From Tannerella sp. (lineage in GTDB: Bacteria > Bacteroidota > Bacteroidia > Bacteroidales > Tannerellaceae), in the NCBI GenBank assembly GCA_031283785.1, contig JAITBC010000157.1, positions 1 through 11,558 of the forward strand: DNA of 11,558 nt. Direction: 5' to 3'. This document shows, in pieces, positions 2,879 to 11,453 of this stretch. The notes beneath the pieces were generated by a model, which saw nothing but the letters and a program-made list of their open reading frames with translations, ran no database searches and was not told the DNA's origin. Position 1 is the first letter of the stretch. Every line of letters starts with the position of its first letter. A program made the position numbers and the translations under genes.

Positions 2879-5800
2879 TTATTCGTTTGGATTCTGTAAT
2901 GATGTTTGCAATTGATTTACAAAGTCAACATTATTTTCACAGGCAAACCGTATTTTTTGCGGTATACTTTGGTTTGGAAGCGAAAAAACAATTCGATTCC
3001 AACCTTGTTTAAAGGGAAGGGCATTTGTTGATTCGCATGTTGTACCGTTCAATAATACCCTGATATCGTCATGCGGGACAATGATATTCAGTTTCGGGAT
3101 ATCGGGTTCGATCAAAAGATTGTCCAGCGGGCGTGGACAGTAAATCCACAAGGTGTATTCCTTGCGGCTGTTACGGTTTTGGACGAACAGGTTGTTCATA
3201 TCTGTGTAACCATGCACGTCAATCAGCGATTCTGAGAGAGTTTTTCCGTAAACGGGTATTCCTGTGCCGGCGATGAGTTTCTCTATCGTACGGTATCCTT
3301 TTTCCGTTCCGGCAAAGTTGTCGAGCGTGCTGACATAGAATGTATTGTAGCCAGTGGCATATTTCACAAACATGACATCCGGCCCTTTCGCTTCGTACTC
3401 GCTACGTAGAACGGCGGCTGTTTTCAGTTCTTCCGGCCGTTTGTTCCACGCACGCCAGTCAGTGTTACACGCATACAGCAAGACCTCGCCTTCCGTCACA
3501 AAATGGCCTGTCATTCCATAAGTTGAAGCATCGTGGTTTTGTATTTCACAAAAATAAAAGTCGGAATTGACCATATTGGCCATCCACGATTTTCGGACAG
3601 GGATAAAAGATGATGCCGCTCGTTTCTCCAGAATCAATGTGTCGGGCATCCATTCGCGATACGTTTCGAGTGTCGAAGGATCAGGCGACCAGAGCCAGAC
3701 GTCAGCGCCTCTGCGTAAGTAGCTTTTTATTGAGACGGTTTCTTTTTCCGTCAACGGGTTGTTGCCGTCAATTAATAGTAGAGCGCTTTTCGCTTCTTTG
3801 ATTTTGCTGTAGAAAACGATACCATGGCTTTGCATCAGTTGTTTCAGCGGGCTTGTTTCTTTGCCGACGAAAAGGATTTCGTTGTATTTTTTTTTCGGAG
3901 GATGATTTGGATATTCTTTTTTATCGGGCATTTCCGACCATTCCGTCCACGCCGGACTATCTCCTGCGTTAGCGGCTTTGATAGCGTCGAACATCGGCCA
4001 CGTACGGTACAACGGGAGCGACGGGTCATAACCGGGATTGAAGGTAGAACTGTACGGCCCCATTCTTTCGGGCTGTATGCCGGGCGTATTTTCCTGGTAT
4101 GCTGCGAAATGAATACCATCATGCAATGTCGGGGGGGCGGTCAGGTCTCTTTTCCCGAACGGAAGCGGGTGCAATGCATACCATGCGATATTGAATACGG
4201 ATACATATGATGCGCCGTTTGTACGTTGCTGGGCAATCAGGTCATAACACTCGCGGGCCAACCCTTCCATTCTGCCGTGTTGAGATTCGTATGCACGTTC
4301 GCCATTATAGCGTGCAACCTGTTCCGGCGTTCCGTAGTAAGCCATGCTGTGTTCGCCGATTCCCCATGGTTTTCCTGTTTCTATCCAGCGTTTCATAGAG
4401 TTTTTGTCGCCATAATGTCCCATAGTTACAGGTAGGATACCATCGCCGTCGTCTTCACCGTCTGCCGTTACCCATGGACGTGTCGGGTCATTTGTCCGCA
4501 CGATTTCGAGCCAGTCGGCCCACGCCTGTTGTTGCAGAGGCAACCATTCTGGCCGGTTAAATACATGGAGGATAACCGGTTTATTTTCATTGCTGATACT
4601 CCAGCCGAAGATAGACGGGTGATTACGATCTCGCAGTACCATCCGTCGCAGATGCATTTTAGAATTTTCCCAAAAGAGCGGAGAGTCTAATTTCGGTCCC
4701 CCGTCGCTTGCCCAGTTAGCCGTTTCGGCAAGAACGCAGATCCCCATTTCATCGGCTACATCCATATAAAAACGAGGGTAAACCTGCGCATGAAAACGCA
4801 CGGCATTAGCGTTGGCATCTTTCAGCGCGGTGAACCATGCCCATGCATATCTGCGGGTCATTTGGGGGATCCCCATAAAATGCCAGGAATCGCCTTTCAA
4901 TTGAACGACTTCGCCGTTCAGCAGCAGTTGAGTACCCCGAAGTGTCCATTCACGCCAGCCGAACCGTTCGTATTTGACGTCAGAAATGTTTTTTCCCGAT
5001 CCGAGTCTCAACGTTAAGCCGTATAAATCAGGGTGTTGGGGCATCCAGTAACTTAATTTGCCGTCGACGGCTATACGAATGGTTGTACGGGTGACGCCGG
5101 GCGCAAGCTTCAGTCTTTGGGGCGGGATGTGGAGCGATACATTGGCGGCGAGTTCCCAGTTGGGGACGGATGCGGATAAAATGTCTGTACCAGCGAGGTT
5201 TATCCACTCCCGGATATCTCCGGATAACGTTTGTTCTTCCGTTTGTTCCGTCATGTTTTCCAACTGTATTTCCATTTCCAGCATACCTTCCGATACCAGC
5301 GGTTTGACATAGACGTCGCAGATATTGATTTTTGGTAAGGCCAGCAAATATACATCCTGCCAGATGCCATTCACGAGATATCCCCACATTGAGCCGGCGG
5401 GGATAATGCGCCGTCCCAGCGTGGAACGGTCTTCGAAAAGCGTCTGGCTTCGTACGCCGACTCTTATTTCCGCCGTTTTCCCGGCTTTTATCGCAGAGGT
5501 GATATCGACCTCAAAAGGAAGGAACAAATCAAAATTTTCAGCCATTTTCTGATCATTCACATATACCTCCGCAAATCCGGCGATAGCTTCGAAATGCAGG
5601 AGAATCTTTTTATCGTGCCATTCGGCAGGGATGTTTATCGTCCTTTTTAGCCAGGCCATTTTTACCTGCTCCCATGCTTCGGGATATGATGGGTAATTAC
5701 GGTGGTCAGGCCCTTCAAGATTGCGATTTGCAAAAGCATTGACATTCCATGGCGAAGGAATCTTAATTTTCGTTTTATCCCAGTCCGAAGCAACAGGACT

Positions 5801-6049
5801 GGGCAGTTCCGGAGTCGGGCTTTTCCCTTGTTGATAATCGGCAGGAAGCGGCATAGCCTGGAAATCCCATTGCCCATTGAGGCAGATTTCTTCCCTGACG
5901 GTTCGTTCTATCTTACCGAGATAACCCTCCGAAGGTGCAAAAACCTGGTTGAAAAACAATTTTCCCGTGTCCGTATCCGCGTGCATCTTTATGTTTATTG
6001 CGGAAGACAGAAAAATAAATAAGATCAAAAGAATGTTGATACGTTTCAT
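2879..6049 (-). CDS. Secreted glycoside hydrolase family 2-type enzyme, specificity unknown
   Basis: The product is a 1056-residue exo-glycosidase-like protein with a Sec signal peptide (MKRINILLILFIFLSSA). I chose the ATG at 6049; a TTG two codons upstream is less likely. Domains run as follows: a GH2 sugar-binding jelly roll (about 45-240, including LNGQWDF and NGIWQDVYL), an Ig-like sandwich (about 240-375), and a TIM barrel (about 380-680). The acid/base is predicted as E488 in RNHPSIFGWSISNEN and the nucleophile as E566 in WGIGEHSMAYYG. Their separation of 78 residues fits GH2 of clan GH-A. After the barrel come an alpha/beta domain (about 725-815) reminiscent of Rossmann/amidotransferase-like modules and a C-terminal beta-rich region, so it is longer than a minimal GH2. 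Substrate (beta-galactoside, beta-mannoside, beta-glucuronide or other) cannot be assigned. It lies 123 bp downstream of the regulator on the same strand but has its own repeat-containing promoter. Export suggests a periplasmic or surface location. Confidence 0.88.
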   Translation of the reverse strand: MKRINILLILFIFLSSAINIKMHADTDTGKLFFNQVFAPSEGYLGKIERTVREEICLNGQWDFQAMPLPADYQQGKSPTPELPSPVASDWDKTKIKIPSPWNVNAFANRNLEGPDHRNYPSYPEAWEQVKMAWLKRTINIPAEWHDKKILLHFEAIAGFAEVYVNDQKMAENFDLFLPFEVDITSAIKAGKTAEIRVGVRSQTLFEDRSTLGRRIIPAGSMWGYLVNGIWQDVYLLALPKINICDVYVKPLVSEGMLEMEIQLENMTEQTEEQTLSGDIREWINLAGTDILSASVPNWELAANVSLHIPPQRLKLAPGVTRTTIRIAVDGKLSYWMPQHPDLYGLTLRLGSGKNISDVKYERFGWREWTLRGTQLLLNGEVVQLKGDSWHFMGIPQMTRRYAWAWFTALKDANANAVRFHAQVYPRFYMDVADEMGICVLAETANWASDGGPKLDSPLFWENSKMHLRRMVLRDRNHPSIFGWSISNENKPVILHVFNRPEWLPLQQQAWADWLEIVRTNDPTRPWVTADGEDDGDGILPVTMGHYGDKNSMKRWIETGKPWGIGEHSMAYYGTPEQVARYNGERAYESQHGRMEGLARECYDLIAQQRTNGASYVSVFNIAWYALHPLPFGKRDLTAPPTLHDGIHFAAYQENTPGIQPERMGPYSSTFNPGYDPSLPLYRTWPMFDAIKAANAGDSPAWTEWSEMPDKKEYPNHPPKKKYNEILFVGKETSPLKQLMQSHGIVFYSKIKEAKSALLLIDGNNPLTEKETVSIKSYLRRGADVWLWSPDPSTLETYREWMPDTLILEKRAASSFIPVRKSWMANMVNSDFYFCEIQNHDASTYGMTGHFVTEGEVLLYACNTDWRAWNKRPEELKTAAVLRSEYEAKGPDVMFVKYATGYNTFYVSTLDNFAGTEKGYRTIEKLIAGTGIPVYGKTLSESLIDVHGYTDMNNLFVQNRNSRKEYTLWIYCPRPLDNLLIEPDIPKLNIIVPHDDIRVLLNGTTCESTNALPFKQGWNRIVFSLPNQSIPQKIRFACENNVDFVNQLQTSLQNPNE

Positions 6050-6077
6050 TGTCAAAGATTTTTATTGATGATGCGCA

Positions 6078-6123
6078 CAAAGATATTCCCACATGCTTAA
6101 AAAAACGCTTAAAAAATACTTAA
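6078..6123 (-). promoter_or_regulatory. Candidate activator-dependent promoter of the GH2 gene with three TTAAG direct repeats
   Basis: Read on the minus strand, TTAAG occurs at 6123-6119, 6112-6108 and 6100-6096 (spacings 11 and 12 bp), the last two preceded by T-runs. Exactly 10 nt after the last copy is TATCTTTG (6085-6078), a perfect match to the Bacteroidota -7 consensus TAnnTTTG. The box ends 28 nt before the ATG. No TTTG is visible at the expected -33 position, which the repeats occupy, so an activator is probably needed. The same geometry recurs before the GH92 gene. Confidence 0.6.
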
Positions 6124-6172: not shown

Positions 6173-8869
6173 TTATTTCACAATTTCGTCAAAAGTCAGT
6201 TCCGGCTCGATGTTTAAGATTTTCAAATGTTCTTCTGTATATTTATTATAACATTGCAAGGCTTGCTTCTTTTTACCCAGTTTGTAGAGGATGCCGCATT
6301 TTAGTTTGATGGCGGATTCATCCAGACTGTCCTGTATCAGGATGATTTCCGAGATATTCAATATCAGCAGCAAATTGGTTTTTACATCCGGATGTTCCGC
6401 CAGGCTCAGCAAAAATTCGATAATAGTATTTGAATATGCAGTTTTATAGTTGTCCAGCCATTCGAGTTCATATGACGGAAGTAATTTTCCTTTTTTCGCA
6501 ATACGCAAAGTTATCCGGAGTAACTCTATGTCTAATATCGTATTTTTTCTGATAAGTTCGATATTTTCCATAACCGTTTCGTAATCGCAATAGATCGTTC
6601 CTGCGTCATGTGATAATATCCAAAAATCGTTTATTTTAGATAGCCTGATATTGCCCATTATATTCAGTATCGGGCGTAACTTATTGAAGTAGACATTACG
6701 GTTGTTACGGGCGTTTTCGATATCTTTATCAGGCCAGAGGATTTTTTGTAATTCGTTGGAGGTGATGCCTTTACCATCTCTTGTTTTAAGGTACAGGAGG
6801 ATAAACATCTGGCTGATGGTGGGCGTGAACAAATGCGAAATATTTACCCCTTTTGAATCCAGGACATCAAACATGTCCAGCATATAAACGGCGGGATAAT
6901 GTGTCGTCATGTTTTCTTCCTCTTTTGCCTTTTTGTTCGGTTTGATATCCGGTTTGATATCCGGTTTATTATCCGGTTTGATGTCCGGTTTATTATTCGG
7001 TTTGATATTAGGTTTGATGTCCGGTTTATTGTTATCCGGTTTGATGGCTTTCAGTGCGGAATGGATATGCATCATTTTTTTTATCCGTTTCACTGCCAGA
7101 TATGCCGGTATTCCGGTGACAGCAAAAAGTAATATATATAATAATGTATATAAAATGTTGGTCGTTTTGTTTTCCGTCTGTAATATATCCGTCATGCTTA
7201 GGGGTGGATAAGAGATGGAGTAGATATCAATTTTACTGTTATCTCCTGCCATGTATGAGGTGACGGCAAAGAGCGTCGAGCTGTCTGAGGGAATGAACAG
7301 GTCACAATAAGATTCCACATCATTGAACAGGAATGGAATAGGATTTCCCAGCCTGCGGAATCCGGGTTCTTGCAGACTGTATTCATGCAGGAACATTTGC
7401 GTTTCGTAAACGTTGTTAGGGTAGGATAACGTGTAAAAGGTTCGGTTTGCCTTGTTTACAACAAGCGAATTGCTGTTCGTGAAATGTTTGTCGACGCGCG
7501 GGATTTCCCATATCTTCCGGACATTCTGCGTATAAGGATTGACGGCATACAGATCGTAATAATTATGCGGCGATTCGTATTGTTTTCCCGAAGCGTTGCC
7601 GTATCCGCCGAAGCATAGCAGGAGCGAATCGCGCCAAATGCCCATGGCCGCAAGGTAGCGAGGGTGTATAACGTCTGATAAATCAATGCTTTGCCATTGA
7701 TGCTCCGTCTCCGAAAAGGATTGTAAAAGCGCCGAATATTTATGGAAACCGTACCCTCCAAACGTATATACGGTACTGTTTTTTTCATCAAAATGTTTGT
7801 TGTGGTGCATGAAACGACGTGTAGAATAGGTATCATCTTCATTATCCCATTTCTGTATGGCAAAATTAAATTCTCCCAGACGGTTTTTTGTAAAATCATA
7901 TATTATTAATCGATCATTAGTCCCGTCATATAATAATTGATTGATGTCTACATTGAAGGGGGTTCCATGGCCGGATTTTATTTCATGAGTCAGATCCTTT
8001 TCCGCATCATAAATATTAATCAGGTTGTTTTTTGCAATGAAGATCCTTTTATTTTCCCTGTCAAAAGAGATCTGGGGATATTTGCCCGCAATAGTGACGG
8101 TCGCCCGTTTTTTCCATTCCGTACGGCGGTCAATTTCCCAGACCGCATTTGTCGTGACGGCTTTTGCCGATTTACATTCGTCGAAGACGCAATTATCGCC
8201 ATGCCTGTTTAATTTCCAGTGTCGTACCGGTCGGTTCTTATAGTCGAATATCCTCACGTCCTTTAAAATAAACGGTGCGACATCTGTTGTTGAAAAATTG
8301 ATGTCGTTATTTCGTCCAAAACATATCATGAATTTTTTCAGGAGACAGATATCATGATCTATTGATTTCTGTTGTCCGTTAAGGGAGATTCTTATTTTAT
8401 TGTTTTCGATATCGACTGTCAGTTCTGCTTTTATCCATTCTCCGTTTGCGCTTTCCCGTATTTCGGAAGTCGGAAAATTCGTCAGTGTAGTATTTCCGGA
8501 TACAAGCATCAGACTTGGAGAGTCAATATTGGAAATCAAGTCGATATTTGTATTCTGATTGCATATAATCCTGAATATATAACCGTAAGTATCGTGTTCC
8601 GGTCTGATCTTAAAATCAAATGACAGGGTAAAGCCGTCCGGGAATGAAAACGGTTTTTCCGGCGTTAAATCCAACCCCGTCCTGCTGTCTTTATCTACTA
8701 AAAAAGAATGGAAATAAAGTCCTTCATCTTTTTTATCTTCCGTGTTATCAGCACATACAAAAGATAATTGGATGAATGTGATTAACAATAATACGACTTC
8801 TTTAAGTCTTTTATTTACTATTTCCGGTATCAATGGTTTATATTTTTGATTTGCAGCACAAACGTACAT
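6173..8869 (-). CDS. Transmembrane one-component regulator: LamG/propeller sensor, TM helix, SARP-like winged helix and BTAD
   Basis: The protein has 898 residues. A hydrophobic segment at about 25-38, then VCA at 38-40, looks like a signal peptide, though its n-region is long; a TTG at 8833 (residue 13) is an alternative start. Residues about 52-230 resemble a LamG/concanavalin sandwich (GFTLSFDFKI, WIKAELTVDI). Residues about 250-560 resemble a kelch/beta-propeller, with FGGYG near 367 and 418. One transmembrane helix lies at about 572-592, followed by basic KRIKK, placing the C-terminus in the cytoplasm. A repetitive KPDI/KPDN linker spans 610-646. Residues about 665-755 form an OmpR/SARP-type winged helix (LLYLKTRDGKGITSNELQ, LWPD at 711-714, YFNKLRPIL). 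Residues 755-898 match a BTAD helical domain (EWLDNYKTAY, LDESAIKLKCGILYKLGKK, ending EHLKILNIEPELTFDEI). There are no histidine-kinase or receiver motifs. I infer that it senses a glycan outside the cytoplasm and directly activates the flanking GH2 and GH92 genes. Domain calls are firm for the C-terminus and moderate for the sensor. Confidence 0.85.
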   Translation of the reverse strand: MYVCAANQKYKPLIPEIVNKRLKEVVLLLITFIQLSFVCADNTEDKKDEGLYFHSFLVDKDSRTGLDLTPEKPFSFPDGFTLSFDFKIRPEHDTYGYIFRIICNQNTNIDLISNIDSPSLMLVSGNTTLTNFPTSEIRESANGEWIKAELTVDIENNKIRISLNGQQKSIDHDICLLKKFMICFGRNNDINFSTTDVAPFILKDVRIFDYKNRPVRHWKLNRHGDNCVFDECKSAKAVTTNAVWEIDRRTEWKKRATVTIAGKYPQISFDRENKRIFIAKNNLINIYDAEKDLTHEIKSGHGTPFNVDINQLLYDGTNDRLIIYDFTKNRLGEFNFAIQKWDNEDDTYSTRRFMHHNKHFDEKNSTVYTFGGYGFHKYSALLQSFSETEHQWQSIDLSDVIHPRYLAAMGIWRDSLLLCFGGYGNASGKQYESPHNYYDLYAVNPYTQNVRKIWEIPRVDKHFTNSNSLVVNKANRTFYTLSYPNNVYETQMFLHEYSLQEPGFRRLGNPIPFLFNDVESYCDLFIPSDSSTLFAVTSYMAGDNSKIDIYSISYPPLSMTDILQTENKTTNILYTLLYILLFAVTGIPAYLAVKRIKKMMHIHSALKAIKPDNNKPDIKPNIKPNNKPDIKPDNKPDIKPDIKPNKKAKEEENMTTHYPAVYMLDMFDVLDSKGVNISHLFTPTISQMFILLYLKTRDGKGITSNELQKILWPDKDIENARNNRNVYFNKLRPILNIMGNIRLSKINDFWILSHDAGTIYCDYETVMENIELIRKNTILDIELLRITLRIAKKGKLLPSYELEWLDNYKTAYSNTIIEFLLSLAEHPDVKTNLLLILNISEIILIQDSLDESAIKLKCGILYKLGKKKQALQCYNKYTEEHLKILNIEPELTFDEIVK
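6932..7042 (-). repeat. 12-bp tandem repeat encoding a KPDI/KPDN/KPNI linker
   Basis: Nine units beginning Lys-Pro (KPDNN, KPDI, KPNI, KPNN, KPDI, KPDN, KPDI, KPDI, KPNK) cover residues 610-646 of the regulator. On the plus strand GGTTT recurs at 6939, 6951, 6963, 6975, 6987, 6999, 7011 and 7023, an exact 12-bp period, with one 15-bp interval to 7038. Changes by whole units keep the reading frame, so copy number could alter the length of the cytoplasmic tether between the membrane and the DNA-binding domain without inactivating the protein. Confidence 0.9.
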
Positions 8870-8972: not shown

Positions 8973-9016
8973 GCTTAATAAAACGCTTAATAAAACACTT
9001 AATAAAACACTTAAAA
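8973..9016. repeat. Four-copy 12-bp direct repeat array in the divergent intergenic region
   Basis: The unit (G/A)CTTAATAAAAC is repeated with an exact 12-bp period: CTTAA starts at 8974, 8986, 8998 and 9010. The fourth copy is truncated (CTTAAAAT). The core is the complement of the TTAAG repeats at the GH2 and GH92 promoters. The array points towards the regulator, opposite to the promoter-proximal repeats of the GH92 gene. An A9 tract at 9028-9036 separates the two sets. Likely a cluster of operator sites, possibly for autoregulation or distal activation. No -7 box is found at the 10-nt spacing on its downstream side. Confidence 0.75.
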
Positions 9017-9062
9017 TAGCGCAGAATAAAAAAAAATCGATTTATTTTCCATATTACGAAAA

Positions 9063-9099
9063 TTTTAAGCGAAATTTTAATAGGCAAATCTTTTATTTG
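9063..9099 (+). promoter_or_regulatory. Candidate activator-dependent promoter of the GH92 gene with TTTTAA direct repeats
   Basis: TTTTAAG at 9063-9069 and TTTTAAT at 9075-9081 are 12 bp apart. A weaker TTACG at 9054-9058 may be a third copy. Exactly 10 nt after the second copy lies TTTATTTG (9092-9099), a one-mismatch version of TAnnTTTG. The box ends 29 nt before the ATG at 9129, nearly the same as the 28 nt for the GH2 gene. No -33 TTTG is seen. Confidence 0.5.
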
Positions 9100-9128: not shown

Positions 9129-11453
9129 ATGAGAAAGTTTCATTTTAGAGCGTACGTTTTTTTGATAGTTCCGATTACATGTTTATGGAGTTGCTGTGAA
9201 AGGGCAGGGGAGGCGAAAACGCCGGTAGATTACGTGAATCCATATATGGGAAACATCAGCCATATTCTTGTACCTACTTATCCGACCGTTCACCTGCCGT
9301 ATGGTATGCTGCGGGTTTATCCCGAACGGAGCGACTATACGTCGGACCTCATTCGCGGCTTGCCTGTGATCGTTACCAGTCATCGCGGGAGTTCGGCCTT
9401 TAATATCAGTCCCGTCTCCGGTACGCAGGATTTGTCGCCTGTGATGAGTTATGCTTATGATCAGGAAGAAATTACGCCATACAGTTATAAAGTGTTTCTG
9501 GATGAACAGCAGGTAGACGTGCGCTATGCGCCTTCACGCCGAGCGGGTATCTATGAGATTACATTCGAAAAAGAGGGTGGACCAAATTTGTTGATATTGA
9601 ATACGCGCAGCGGGGGAATCAATATCACGGAAAAGGGTGTGACGGGATACCAGCGAATTTCGGGGATGAAAGGCGGTATGATGAACGTTTATGTTTTTTT
9701 CGAGACGAAAGAAAAACCCTTGTCCGCAGGCATTTTGTCCTCAGAAAAACAGGACGGGAACGACCGTGCCGGGCGGCAAAGTTTTATTATCGACGATAAC
9801 AGGAAAAGTGTGGAAGGGCGGAATCGGGCGGTAGTGCTCGACTTCGGAACGGAGAAAACGATACACCTGCGTTACGGCGTTTCGTTTATTGATGAAATAC
9901 AGGCGGAAGCAAACCTGCGCAACGAAATAGACACATACGATTACCGGGATGTTGCCCGTACAGGACGCGATATCTGGAACAAAACGCTGGGTAAGATTCG
10001 TGTGGCGGGCGGCACGGACGATGAAAAATCCGTGTTCTATACATCTCTATACCGTACTTGCGAGCGCATGATAAATATTTCGGAGGACGGACGTTACTAT
10101 GACGCCTTTGCGGGTGGAAAAGTCAGGGAAGACGGTGGAACGTCCTTCTATACGGACGACTGGATTTGGGATACATACCGCGCCGTACATCCGTTGCGGA
10201 TATTAATTGAGCCGGAAAAAGAACGCGATATGATTTGTTCATATATCCGTATGGCTCAGGCCTCACAGGAAGGCTGGATGCCGACATTCCCCGAAGTGAC
10301 GGGCGACAGTCACCGTATGAACGGAAACCATGCGGTGGCAGTTGTTTGGGATGCTTATGCCAAGGGATTGCGAGGGTTCGATCTGAACGAAGCATATCAG
10401 GCTTGCAAAAAGGCGATTACGGAATCTACGCTGATCCCATGGGTGCGTGCACAGGGCGGTGTGCTGGATGATTTCTACAGGGAGAAAGGTTATTTCCCGG
10501 CATTGAAACCGGAGGAAACGGAAACGGTGGAGGACGTCAACTCTTTTGAAAAACGTCAACCCGTAGCTGTGACCACAGGAACATCGTTCGACCATTGGTG
10601 TTTGTCGCAGATCGCAAAAGAACTCGGACTGGAGGATGATTATCGCTATTTCCTGCATGCTTCGTATAATTATCGCAATCTTTATAACGGAGCGACAGGG
10701 TTTCTCCATCCCAAAGATCATGACGGGAATTTTATAGAACCGTTCGATTATCGTTTCTCCGGCGGAGCGGGACTGCGGGATTATTACGATGAAAACAACG
10801 GATGGACATATCGCTGGGACGTACCGCATAATCCGGCCGACTTAATACGCTTGATGGGATCTGCCGAAAATTTCGTCCGGAATCTGAACAACACGTTCCG
10901 TGAGCCAATGGGTATGGGTAAATCTGCATTCTATAACAAAATACCCGACCAAACGGGGAATGTAGGACAATATTCGATGGCAAACGAGCCTTCCATGCAC
11001 ATACCTTACTTATATAATTATGCAGGACAGCCGTGGATGACGCAGAAGCGTGTCCGTCAGTTACTCGACATGTGGTTTCGTAACGACCTGATGGGTGTGC
11101 CGGGCGATGAAGACGGCGGTGGTTTGTCGGCCTTTGTCGTATTTTCGGCGATGGGTTTTTATCCGGTTACGCCGGGAATGGCCGCTTACAATATCGGCAG
11201 TCCGCTGTTCCGTAAAATTAATATTGATTTGGGTGGCGGTAAACATTTCGGTATAGAAGCTGTCGGTTGTTCGCCTGAAAATAAGTATGTGCAAAGCGCT
11301 ACCCTGAATGGAAAACCGTGGAATAAACCGTGGTTCGGTCACGATGACATCAGGAATGGAGGCACGTTAGTCCTGATTATGGGAAATCGCCCCAACTACA
11401 CATGGGGCGCTAAGATTGAAGACGTTCCGCCTTCGGCAGAACGAATTGACTGA
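9129..11453 (+). CDS. GH92 family glycosidase (putative exo-alpha-mannosidase), lipoprotein
   Basis: The 774-residue product has the usual GH92 length. Characterised GH92 enzymes are calcium-dependent, inverting exo-alpha-mannosidases that trim N-glycans or mannans. The N-terminus (MRKFHFRAYVFLIVPITCLWSC) resembles a lipoprotein signal with Cys22 as acceptor; the Trp in the lipobox is atypical. An N-terminal beta-sandwich (about 33-265; VDYVNPYMGN, YPTVHLPYGMLRVYP) precedes a helical barrel. Family motifs include YTDDWIWDTYR, the ENNGWTY motif with E555 as likely general acid, NEPS with conserved E620, and PGDEDGGGLSAF with D660/D662 as likely base pair. The order and spacing fit an active enzyme. 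YPVTPGMAAYNIGSPLF and the C-terminal PNYTWG are also typical. Linkage preference cannot be told. It is divergent from the regulator and shares promoter geometry with the GH2 gene, suggesting joint action on a mannose-containing glycan. Confidence 0.93.
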   Translation: MRKFHFRAYVFLIVPITCLWSCCERAGEAKTPVDYVNPYMGNISHILVPTYPTVHLPYGMLRVYPERSDYTSDLIRGLPVIVTSHRGSSAFNISPVSGTQDLSPVMSYAYDQEEITPYSYKVFLDEQQVDVRYAPSRRAGIYEITFEKEGGPNLLILNTRSGGINITEKGVTGYQRISGMKGGMMNVYVFFETKEKPLSAGILSSEKQDGNDRAGRQSFIIDDNRKSVEGRNRAVVLDFGTEKTIHLRYGVSFIDEIQAEANLRNEIDTYDYRDVARTGRDIWNKTLGKIRVAGGTDDEKSVFYTSLYRTCERMINISEDGRYYDAFAGGKVREDGGTSFYTDDWIWDTYRAVHPLRILIEPEKERDMICSYIRMAQASQEGWMPTFPEVTGDSHRMNGNHAVAVVWDAYAKGLRGFDLNEAYQACKKAITESTLIPWVRAQGGVLDDFYREKGYFPALKPEETETVEDVNSFEKRQPVAVTTGTSFDHWCLSQIAKELGLEDDYRYFLHASYNYRNLYNGATGFLHPKDHDGNFIEPFDYRFSGGAGLRDYYDENNGWTYRWDVPHNPADLIRLMGSAENFVRNLNNTFREPMGMGKSAFYNKIPDQTGNVGQYSMANEPSMHIPYLYNYAGQPWMTQKRVRQLLDMWFRNDLMGVPGDEDGGGLSAFVVFSAMGFYPVTPGMAAYNIGSPLFRKINIDLGGGKHFGIEAVGCSPENKYVQSATLNGKPWNKPWFGHDDIRNGGTLVLIMGNRPNYTWGAKIEDVPPSAERID

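Follow-up and report, generated by a model that had tools for sequence, protein, structure and literature searches.

The locus described here raises the question of how a signal outside the cell could reach the promoters of two glycosidase genes through a single protein. The window, by which we mean the whole 11,558-nucleotide stretch analysed (Tannerella sp., assembly GCA_031283785.1, contig JAITBC010000157.1), appears to be a metagenome contig and holds one gene, hereafter the regulator, flanked by a glycoside hydrolase family 2 (GH2) gene on the minus strand and a divergent GH92 gene on the plus strand. We consider it quite probable that the regulator is a membrane-spanning one-component activator, in which an exported LamG-like and kelch sensor is joined to a SARP-type output module acting on tandem TTAA promoters. 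An earlier sequence-only reading had proposed a SARP-like C-terminus, a transmembrane helix near residues 572-592, and an exported propeller, together forming an outside-to-DNA route; all of these reappear in the predicted fold and topology (Table 1), with the propeller now recognized as kelch. The SARP-like tandem operators before both flanking glycosidase genes are an addition to that reading.

It is the operators that connect the regulator to its putative targets. SARP promoters have repeats 11 or 22 bp apart, the last one 8 bp from the -10 element (PMC10936776, PMC4393881), and TAnnTTTG is the Bacteroidota -7 box consensus (PMC7366714). Judged from their sequences, both candidate promoters of the window glycosidases show this published geometry with a Bacteroidota -7 box, the GH92 site matching 15 of 16 scored bases and having an imperfect box. 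In the window and 71 related loci (1.12 Mb), there are 156 strand-counted TTAA triples at 11- or 12-bp steps, where 20 Markov sets gave 5.1 ± 2.5; as TTAA is palindromic, each triple is counted twice, in real and Markov sets alike. A TTTG lies 8-30 bp downstream of 51 triples and at exactly 19 bp in 36 of these, while the remaining triples, the four-copy array of Table 1 included, have no TTTG at 19 bp. A T at +15 and an A at +16, neither of which had been searched for, are found in 83% and 77% of the 36 sites, respectively, giving TAnnTTTG 8 bp past the third heptamer. The steps between repeats are 11/11 in 8 sites, 11/12 in 12, and 12/12 in 16, and so are not strictly 11; the geometry is that of direct repeats of about 11 bp placed 8 bp from a -7 box, in sites assigned to the regulator by association only.

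All but one of the 36 exact sites (35) lie outside called genes; 31 precede a same-strand gene by no more than 320 bp, and 23 are within 1 kb of the regulator. Strict patterns miss sites, and when the 16 bases are scored as exact (16/16) or at the looser levels of 15/16 and 14/16, a site is found within 1 kb of the regulator in 22, 33, and 44 of the 72 loci, respectively. Hits more than 2 kb from the regulator number 66 at 14/16, and exact sites are 11.8 times as dense within 1 kb as beyond 2 kb. The four-copy array has two- or three-copy versions at the equivalent place in L001, L004, and L007 and is possibly an autoregulatory or accessory site. Near a distant relative, two operators (L068, 7303 on the minus strand and 14011 on the plus strand) carry TTAAGG repeats, and the sixth base of the repeat therefore seems to vary between clades.

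The association between sites and regulator genes extends to whole genomes. In 15 regulator-bearing genomes (those of L037 and L041 excluded), the exact pattern occurs 47 times and the reversed pattern 4 times, and 10 of the 47 sites have one of 38 regulator genes (42 rows less four short or fragment hits) within 1 kb, where 0.095 would be expected. Because these genomes include loci that gave the pattern, the counts were repeated on further genomes, the first 15 being excluded; fragment hits (G198, G178, G169:C12, and G211:C10) were dropped, G178 then being counted as lacking the regulator, and overlapping rows at G192:C13 were merged. Among 22 further genomes of genus A, 19 sites occur in the 14 that have the regulator (57.5 Mb) and 2 in the 8 that do not (22.7 Mb), and 10 of the 19 lie within 1 kb of a regulator gene (0.04 expected), at distances of 50-307 bp. 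For genus B (57 further genomes), 26 sites occur in 20 regulator-matched genomes and 6 in the 37 others; 5 of the 26 are within 1 kb of a regulator (0.05 expected) and 11 within 10 kb. The 35 site sequences tested (all 21 from genus A and 14 of the 32 from genus B) are all absent from L001-L071, and the tested sites are therefore not ones used to draw the pattern. A look-up of 11 genomes showed that two of the further set, G144 and G191, contain the fetched loci L033 and L049; the exact pattern occurs 29 times in these 11 and the reversed pattern twice. Among 121 genomes sampled at family level, the 4 with a full regulator carry 5 sites and the other 117 carry 7, so that without the regulator the pattern is at background. 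The direction of the association is clear.

It could nonetheless be argued that the protein is a SARP-fold membrane regulator while the TTAA-repeat promoters are owned by another factor controlling the same glycan loci. A conserved element, TTAACATC(C/T)..TTTAA..TTTAAA..TTTG, fits the pattern in many Bacteroides genomes, whether or not they have the regulator (its places include G004:C25, G008:C57, G089:C9, G166:C142, G195:C1, G200:C24, and G209:C53) and accounts for 9 of the 32 sites in genus B; some pattern matches thus fall outside the regulator family. This element speaks for such a factor, as does the distance of more than 1 kb from any regulator seen for 37 of the 47 sites of the first 15 genomes. 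Against it stand the scarcity of sites in regulator-free genomes (the 2 versus 19 of genus A and, for genus B once the element is removed, 1 in 126.5 Mb versus 22 in 83.9 Mb with the regulator), the ten genus A sites close to a regulator gene, and a promoter geometry that is the one reported for SARPs. We regard a separate owner of these promoters as unlikely.

Several other results, like the distant sites just mentioned, weigh against a SARP-type activator acting through these promoters. Exact sites are absent from 4 of 14 regulator genomes of genus A, 7 of 20 of genus B, and 2 of the 4 in the family sample; in two more genus B regulator genomes, the sole site is the TTAACATC element. No site of at least 14/16 lies within 1 kb of the regulator in 28 of the 72 loci (some on short contigs), and the family sample as a whole, with 12 sites against 8 for the reversed pattern, is at background. 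Related genomes share sites that were treated as independent, and P values are therefore too small by some amount. Three repeats at 11-12 bp depart from the usual two at 11 bp, and a -7 box at the usual spacing is missing from the four-copy array. Judged against the curated cut-off, the window protein matches neither BTAD nor Trans_reg_C in Pfam, and the profiles expected by the sequence-only reading for residues 660-898 are matched weakly (E <= 0.5) in 19 and 18, respectively, of 58 aligned family members. When 10 genomes (7 with the regulator) were searched for BTAD, none of the regulator genes was recovered. The whole argument is computational, and the ligand and the transfer of its signal are putative.

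In the absence of a Pfam match, it is by its fold and its operator that we name the regulator SARP-type, outside the sequence family. In the AlphaFold2 (AF2) model, an OmpR-type winged helix is followed by a BTA domain, and a fold search matched this pair to AfsR and also aligned it with EmbR. Fold searching was needed, as a PDB sequence search with a C-terminal profile gave nothing at E <= 5 and one with the single window sequence gave a single weak match (SaeR, E 0.27). The recognition helix has invariant N722, R724, and V726 and basic K730 and R732. The module is not N-terminal, occupying residues 660-897 of 898.

The remainder of the protein is predicted to form an exported sensor, a membrane helix, and a linker, a layout like that of SusR, with an exported sensor and a cytoplasmic DNA-binding domain in one membrane protein. 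Pfam gave the window protein alone kelch-like matches and one weak TPR row, and NCBIfam gave it no match; a PDB search with a full-length profile returned kelch proteins and two aspartokinase rows (E 0.05-0.06), and a fold search with the whole model covered essentially the propeller. Of the two sensor folds anticipated by the sequence-only reading, kelch is thus detected in the window protein itself, whereas Laminin_G_3 is matched in a few family members (Table 1). A 12-bp tandem repeat at 6938-7045 encodes a KPDIKPN-type linker between the membrane helix and the DNA-binding domain. The first ATG (region 8860-8869) overlaps TACGTTTG, which could be a -7 box; translation therefore probably begins farther downstream, perhaps by 12 codons or more.

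Table 1. Positions of the regulator, its predicted parts, the flanking genes, and the candidate operators in the window
Feature	Position	Strand	Basis or remark
Regulator open reading frame	6173..8869	-	898 aa counted from first ATG
N-terminal hydrophobic helix, residues 16-37	8759..8824	-	AF2 helix; hydropathy 2.01; signal peptide or N-in anchor
Exported beta-sandwich, LamG-like, residues 45-245	8135..8737	-	Strand pattern in model; Laminin_G_3 in 3/58 members
Kelch propeller, residues 250-558	7196..8122	-	Pfam matches, family members, fold search
Transmembrane helix and basic cytoplasmic extension, residues 572-608	7046..7156	-	AF2 model, hydropathy
Disordered linker, KPDIKP-type repeats, residues 606-653	6911..7054	-	AF2 model
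OmpR-type winged helix, residues 660-753	6611..6892	-	AF2 model, fold search
BTA (BTAD-like) helical domain, residues 762-897	6179..6586	-	AF2 model, fold search
GH2 operator-promoter	6078..6123	-	Three exact TTAAGNN repeats (11 and 12 bp apart), 8 bp, TATCTTTG
GH92 operator-promoter	9054..9099	+	TTACGAA, TTAAGCG, TTAATAG (11 and 12 bp apart), 8 bp, TTTATTTG
Four-copy 12-bp TTAAGYG array	8974..9014		Divergent regulator/GH92 region
GH2 glycosidase, predicted target	2879..6055	-	Likely start ATG at 6049
GH92 glycosidase (alpha-mannosidase family), predicted target	9129..11453	+	Divergent from regulator

The regulator family is spread through the Bacteroidota. A protein search found 422 members, and the 71 related loci fetched (L001-L071) extend from Tannerella sp. 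metagenome-assembled genomes (L001-L005, the closest, at 66-81% identity) to Bacteroides, Dysgonomonas, Paludibacter, Sphingobacterium, Parapedobacter, and Flammeovirga. In public sources its proteins go by the names "hypothetical", "Kelch repeat-containing", "two-component SAPR family response regulator", and "SARP family transcriptional activator"; automatic annotation had thus already noticed the SARP likeness. Split or stop-bearing copies occur at L025, L028, L038, L051, L063, L065, and G168:C1, which suggests either recurrent gene loss or assembly errors.

The large exported propeller, single helix, cytoplasmic DNA-binding end, and adjoining glycosidases are also what a hybrid two-component sensor would retain had it lost its kinase and receiver and exchanged its output domain, the layout invoked by the sequence-only reading. 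Such an origin now appears very improbable. At E <= 1, the window protein has no Pfam match to a kinase, receiver, AraC, Reg_prop, or Y_Y_Y domain; its propeller is kelch, accompanied by a LamG-like sandwich, so the likeness is one of layout only. The kelch architecture is common to all 58 aligned members of a phylum-wide family, and the regulator is therefore not a recent derivative of hybrid two-component systems (HTCS). The output module is found behind other sensors as well. Eight loci (L081-L088), fetched since only their C-terminal part matched the regulator, have the membrane helix and SARP module joined to other exported parts: strong Laminin_G_3 (E 5e-15 to 1e-18) with a different N-terminal domain in L081-L085, and a short unassigned domain in the proteins of about 500 residues at L086-L088. 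Three of the eight have TTAA triples at 11 bp about 100 bp past the 3' end of the regulator gene, with no TTTG 15-23 bp after them.

Genes below the sites are frequently concerned with glycans. Taking sites with 18-20 bp spacing, the window GH2 included, and omitting the 3 of 41 site rows without a nearby gene, the 38 genes below sites include 6 with matches to TonB-dependent receptor plugs, 5 to sulfatase, 4 to GH92, 3 to GH2, 2 each to GH31 and GH99, and 1 to GH3. The 64 downstream neighbours of the regulator include 12 with matches to TonB-dependent receptor plugs and 6 to GH99, and the 60 upstream neighbours include 4 with matches to GH3 and 3 to GH31, with housekeeping genes among the rest. 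The proximity to glycan genes anticipated for homologues is thus common but not constant. In the genome of the closest relative (L001), eight further sites were read, five of them with a called gene within 400 bp, encoding a SusC-like receptor, a GH3 enzyme, a transglutaminase-like protein, and two unassigned proteins. These further sites suggest control in trans, with ownership left ambiguous by other paralogues in that genome. Elsewhere in the window, an open reading frame at 2-2776, open at its 5' end, encodes FG-GAP repeats, DUF11, and List_Bact repeats, with a C-terminal tail that we take to resemble a type IX secretion sorting domain; PADLOC reported nothing.

Under the membrane-spanning activator that we favour, the LamG-like and kelch half would lie beyond the inner membrane, its putative ligand being a fragment of a glycan or glycoprotein. 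A single helix would cross the membrane, and the flexible linker would hold the winged-helix and BTA pair on the cytoplasmic side, where it would bind the tandem TTAA(G/T)NN repeats with one protomer per repeat, at one helical turn. The repeats end 8 bp upstream of the -7 box, and the regulator may recruit RNA polymerase as AfsR does. The simplest signal step would be ligand-driven clustering or re-orientation in the membrane that favours side-by-side assembly on the repeats, tethered copies gathered by ligand pairing more on three tandem repeats. The window regulator would in this way switch on the flanking GH2 and GH92 genes and perhaps, through the four-copy array, itself. A DNA-binding end freed by proteolysis and acting as a soluble SARP is an alternative, which the long disordered linker would accommodate and with which the AfsR SARP domain, monomeric in solution and forming pairs on DNA (PMC10936776), would agree. 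However, the linker repeat is absent in the close relative P0004, and no protease site or partner was seen, none having been searched for; we hold release by proteolysis to be improbable.

The regulator shares features with several known systems. With the actinomycete SARPs AfsR, ActII-4, DnrI, and OtcR, it has in common the winged-helix and BTA fold (AfsR compared) and repeats about one turn apart that end 8 bp before the -10/-7 box. It differs from them in its C-terminal SARP domain behind a membrane helix and exported sensor, its three TTAA-type repeats at 11-12 bp, its Bacteroidota -7 box, its lack of a Pfam BTAD or Trans_reg_C match, and its placement at glycan loci rather than antibiotic clusters. 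The winged helix of ToxR and CadC, which are also membrane one-component regulators, is OmpR-like but N-terminal and without a BTA domain, whereas here it is C-terminal and followed by one, the opposite topology that the sequence-only reading had pointed out. In EmbR, the SARP fold is likewise fused to another domain, a C-terminal FHA domain (PMC10936776), whereas here the SARP fold is joined, on its opposite side, to kelch/LamG and a membrane helix. HTCS share the exported sensor, neighbouring glycan genes, and direct-repeat motifs, with tandem sites averaging 21 bp apart (PMC3878776); the kinase, receiver, and AraC matches are lacking here. Membrane one-component regulation is not new in the Bacteroidota, because SusR of Bacteroides thetaiotaomicron is described as a membrane protein of this kind, with an exported sensor, a cytoplasmic DNA-binding end, and direct repeats at glycan loci (PMC3878776). 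It is by this description only that the window regulator is set apart from SusR, whose DNA-binding domain is unlike known factors and whose repeat motif has a long spacer (PMC3878776). A literature search for such a regulator in the Bacteroidota found no report, which is weak evidence of absence, as the searches were mostly empty or off topic and many subscription papers were outside reach; SARP, kelch, and SusR do not occur in the main text of PMC12596196. What may be new is the combination of exported kelch/LamG sensor, membrane helix, SARP module, and promoter repeats, the SARP likeness itself having been annotated already.

Beyond this one protein, we think it rather likely that, in addition to the SusR-like, HTCS, and extracytoplasmic function (ECF) types, glycan loci of the Bacteroidota are served by another class of regulators found across the phylum. 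These would be modular membrane SARPs, with one output module on varied exported sensors (LamG/kelch, LamG with another N-terminal domain, or a short unassigned domain) and the actinomycete 8-bp SARP rule transplanted onto the sigma-ABfr -7 box. If so, a widely distributed and poorly named family would become a readable regulator whose operator pattern predicts targets from sequence, and SARP-style activation would exist outside the actinomycetes, driven from the cell surface. It would also lead directly to the signals by which the polysaccharide loci beside regulator genes are turned on and would bear on the age of the SARP promoter geometry, kept across two phyla with different sigma factors.
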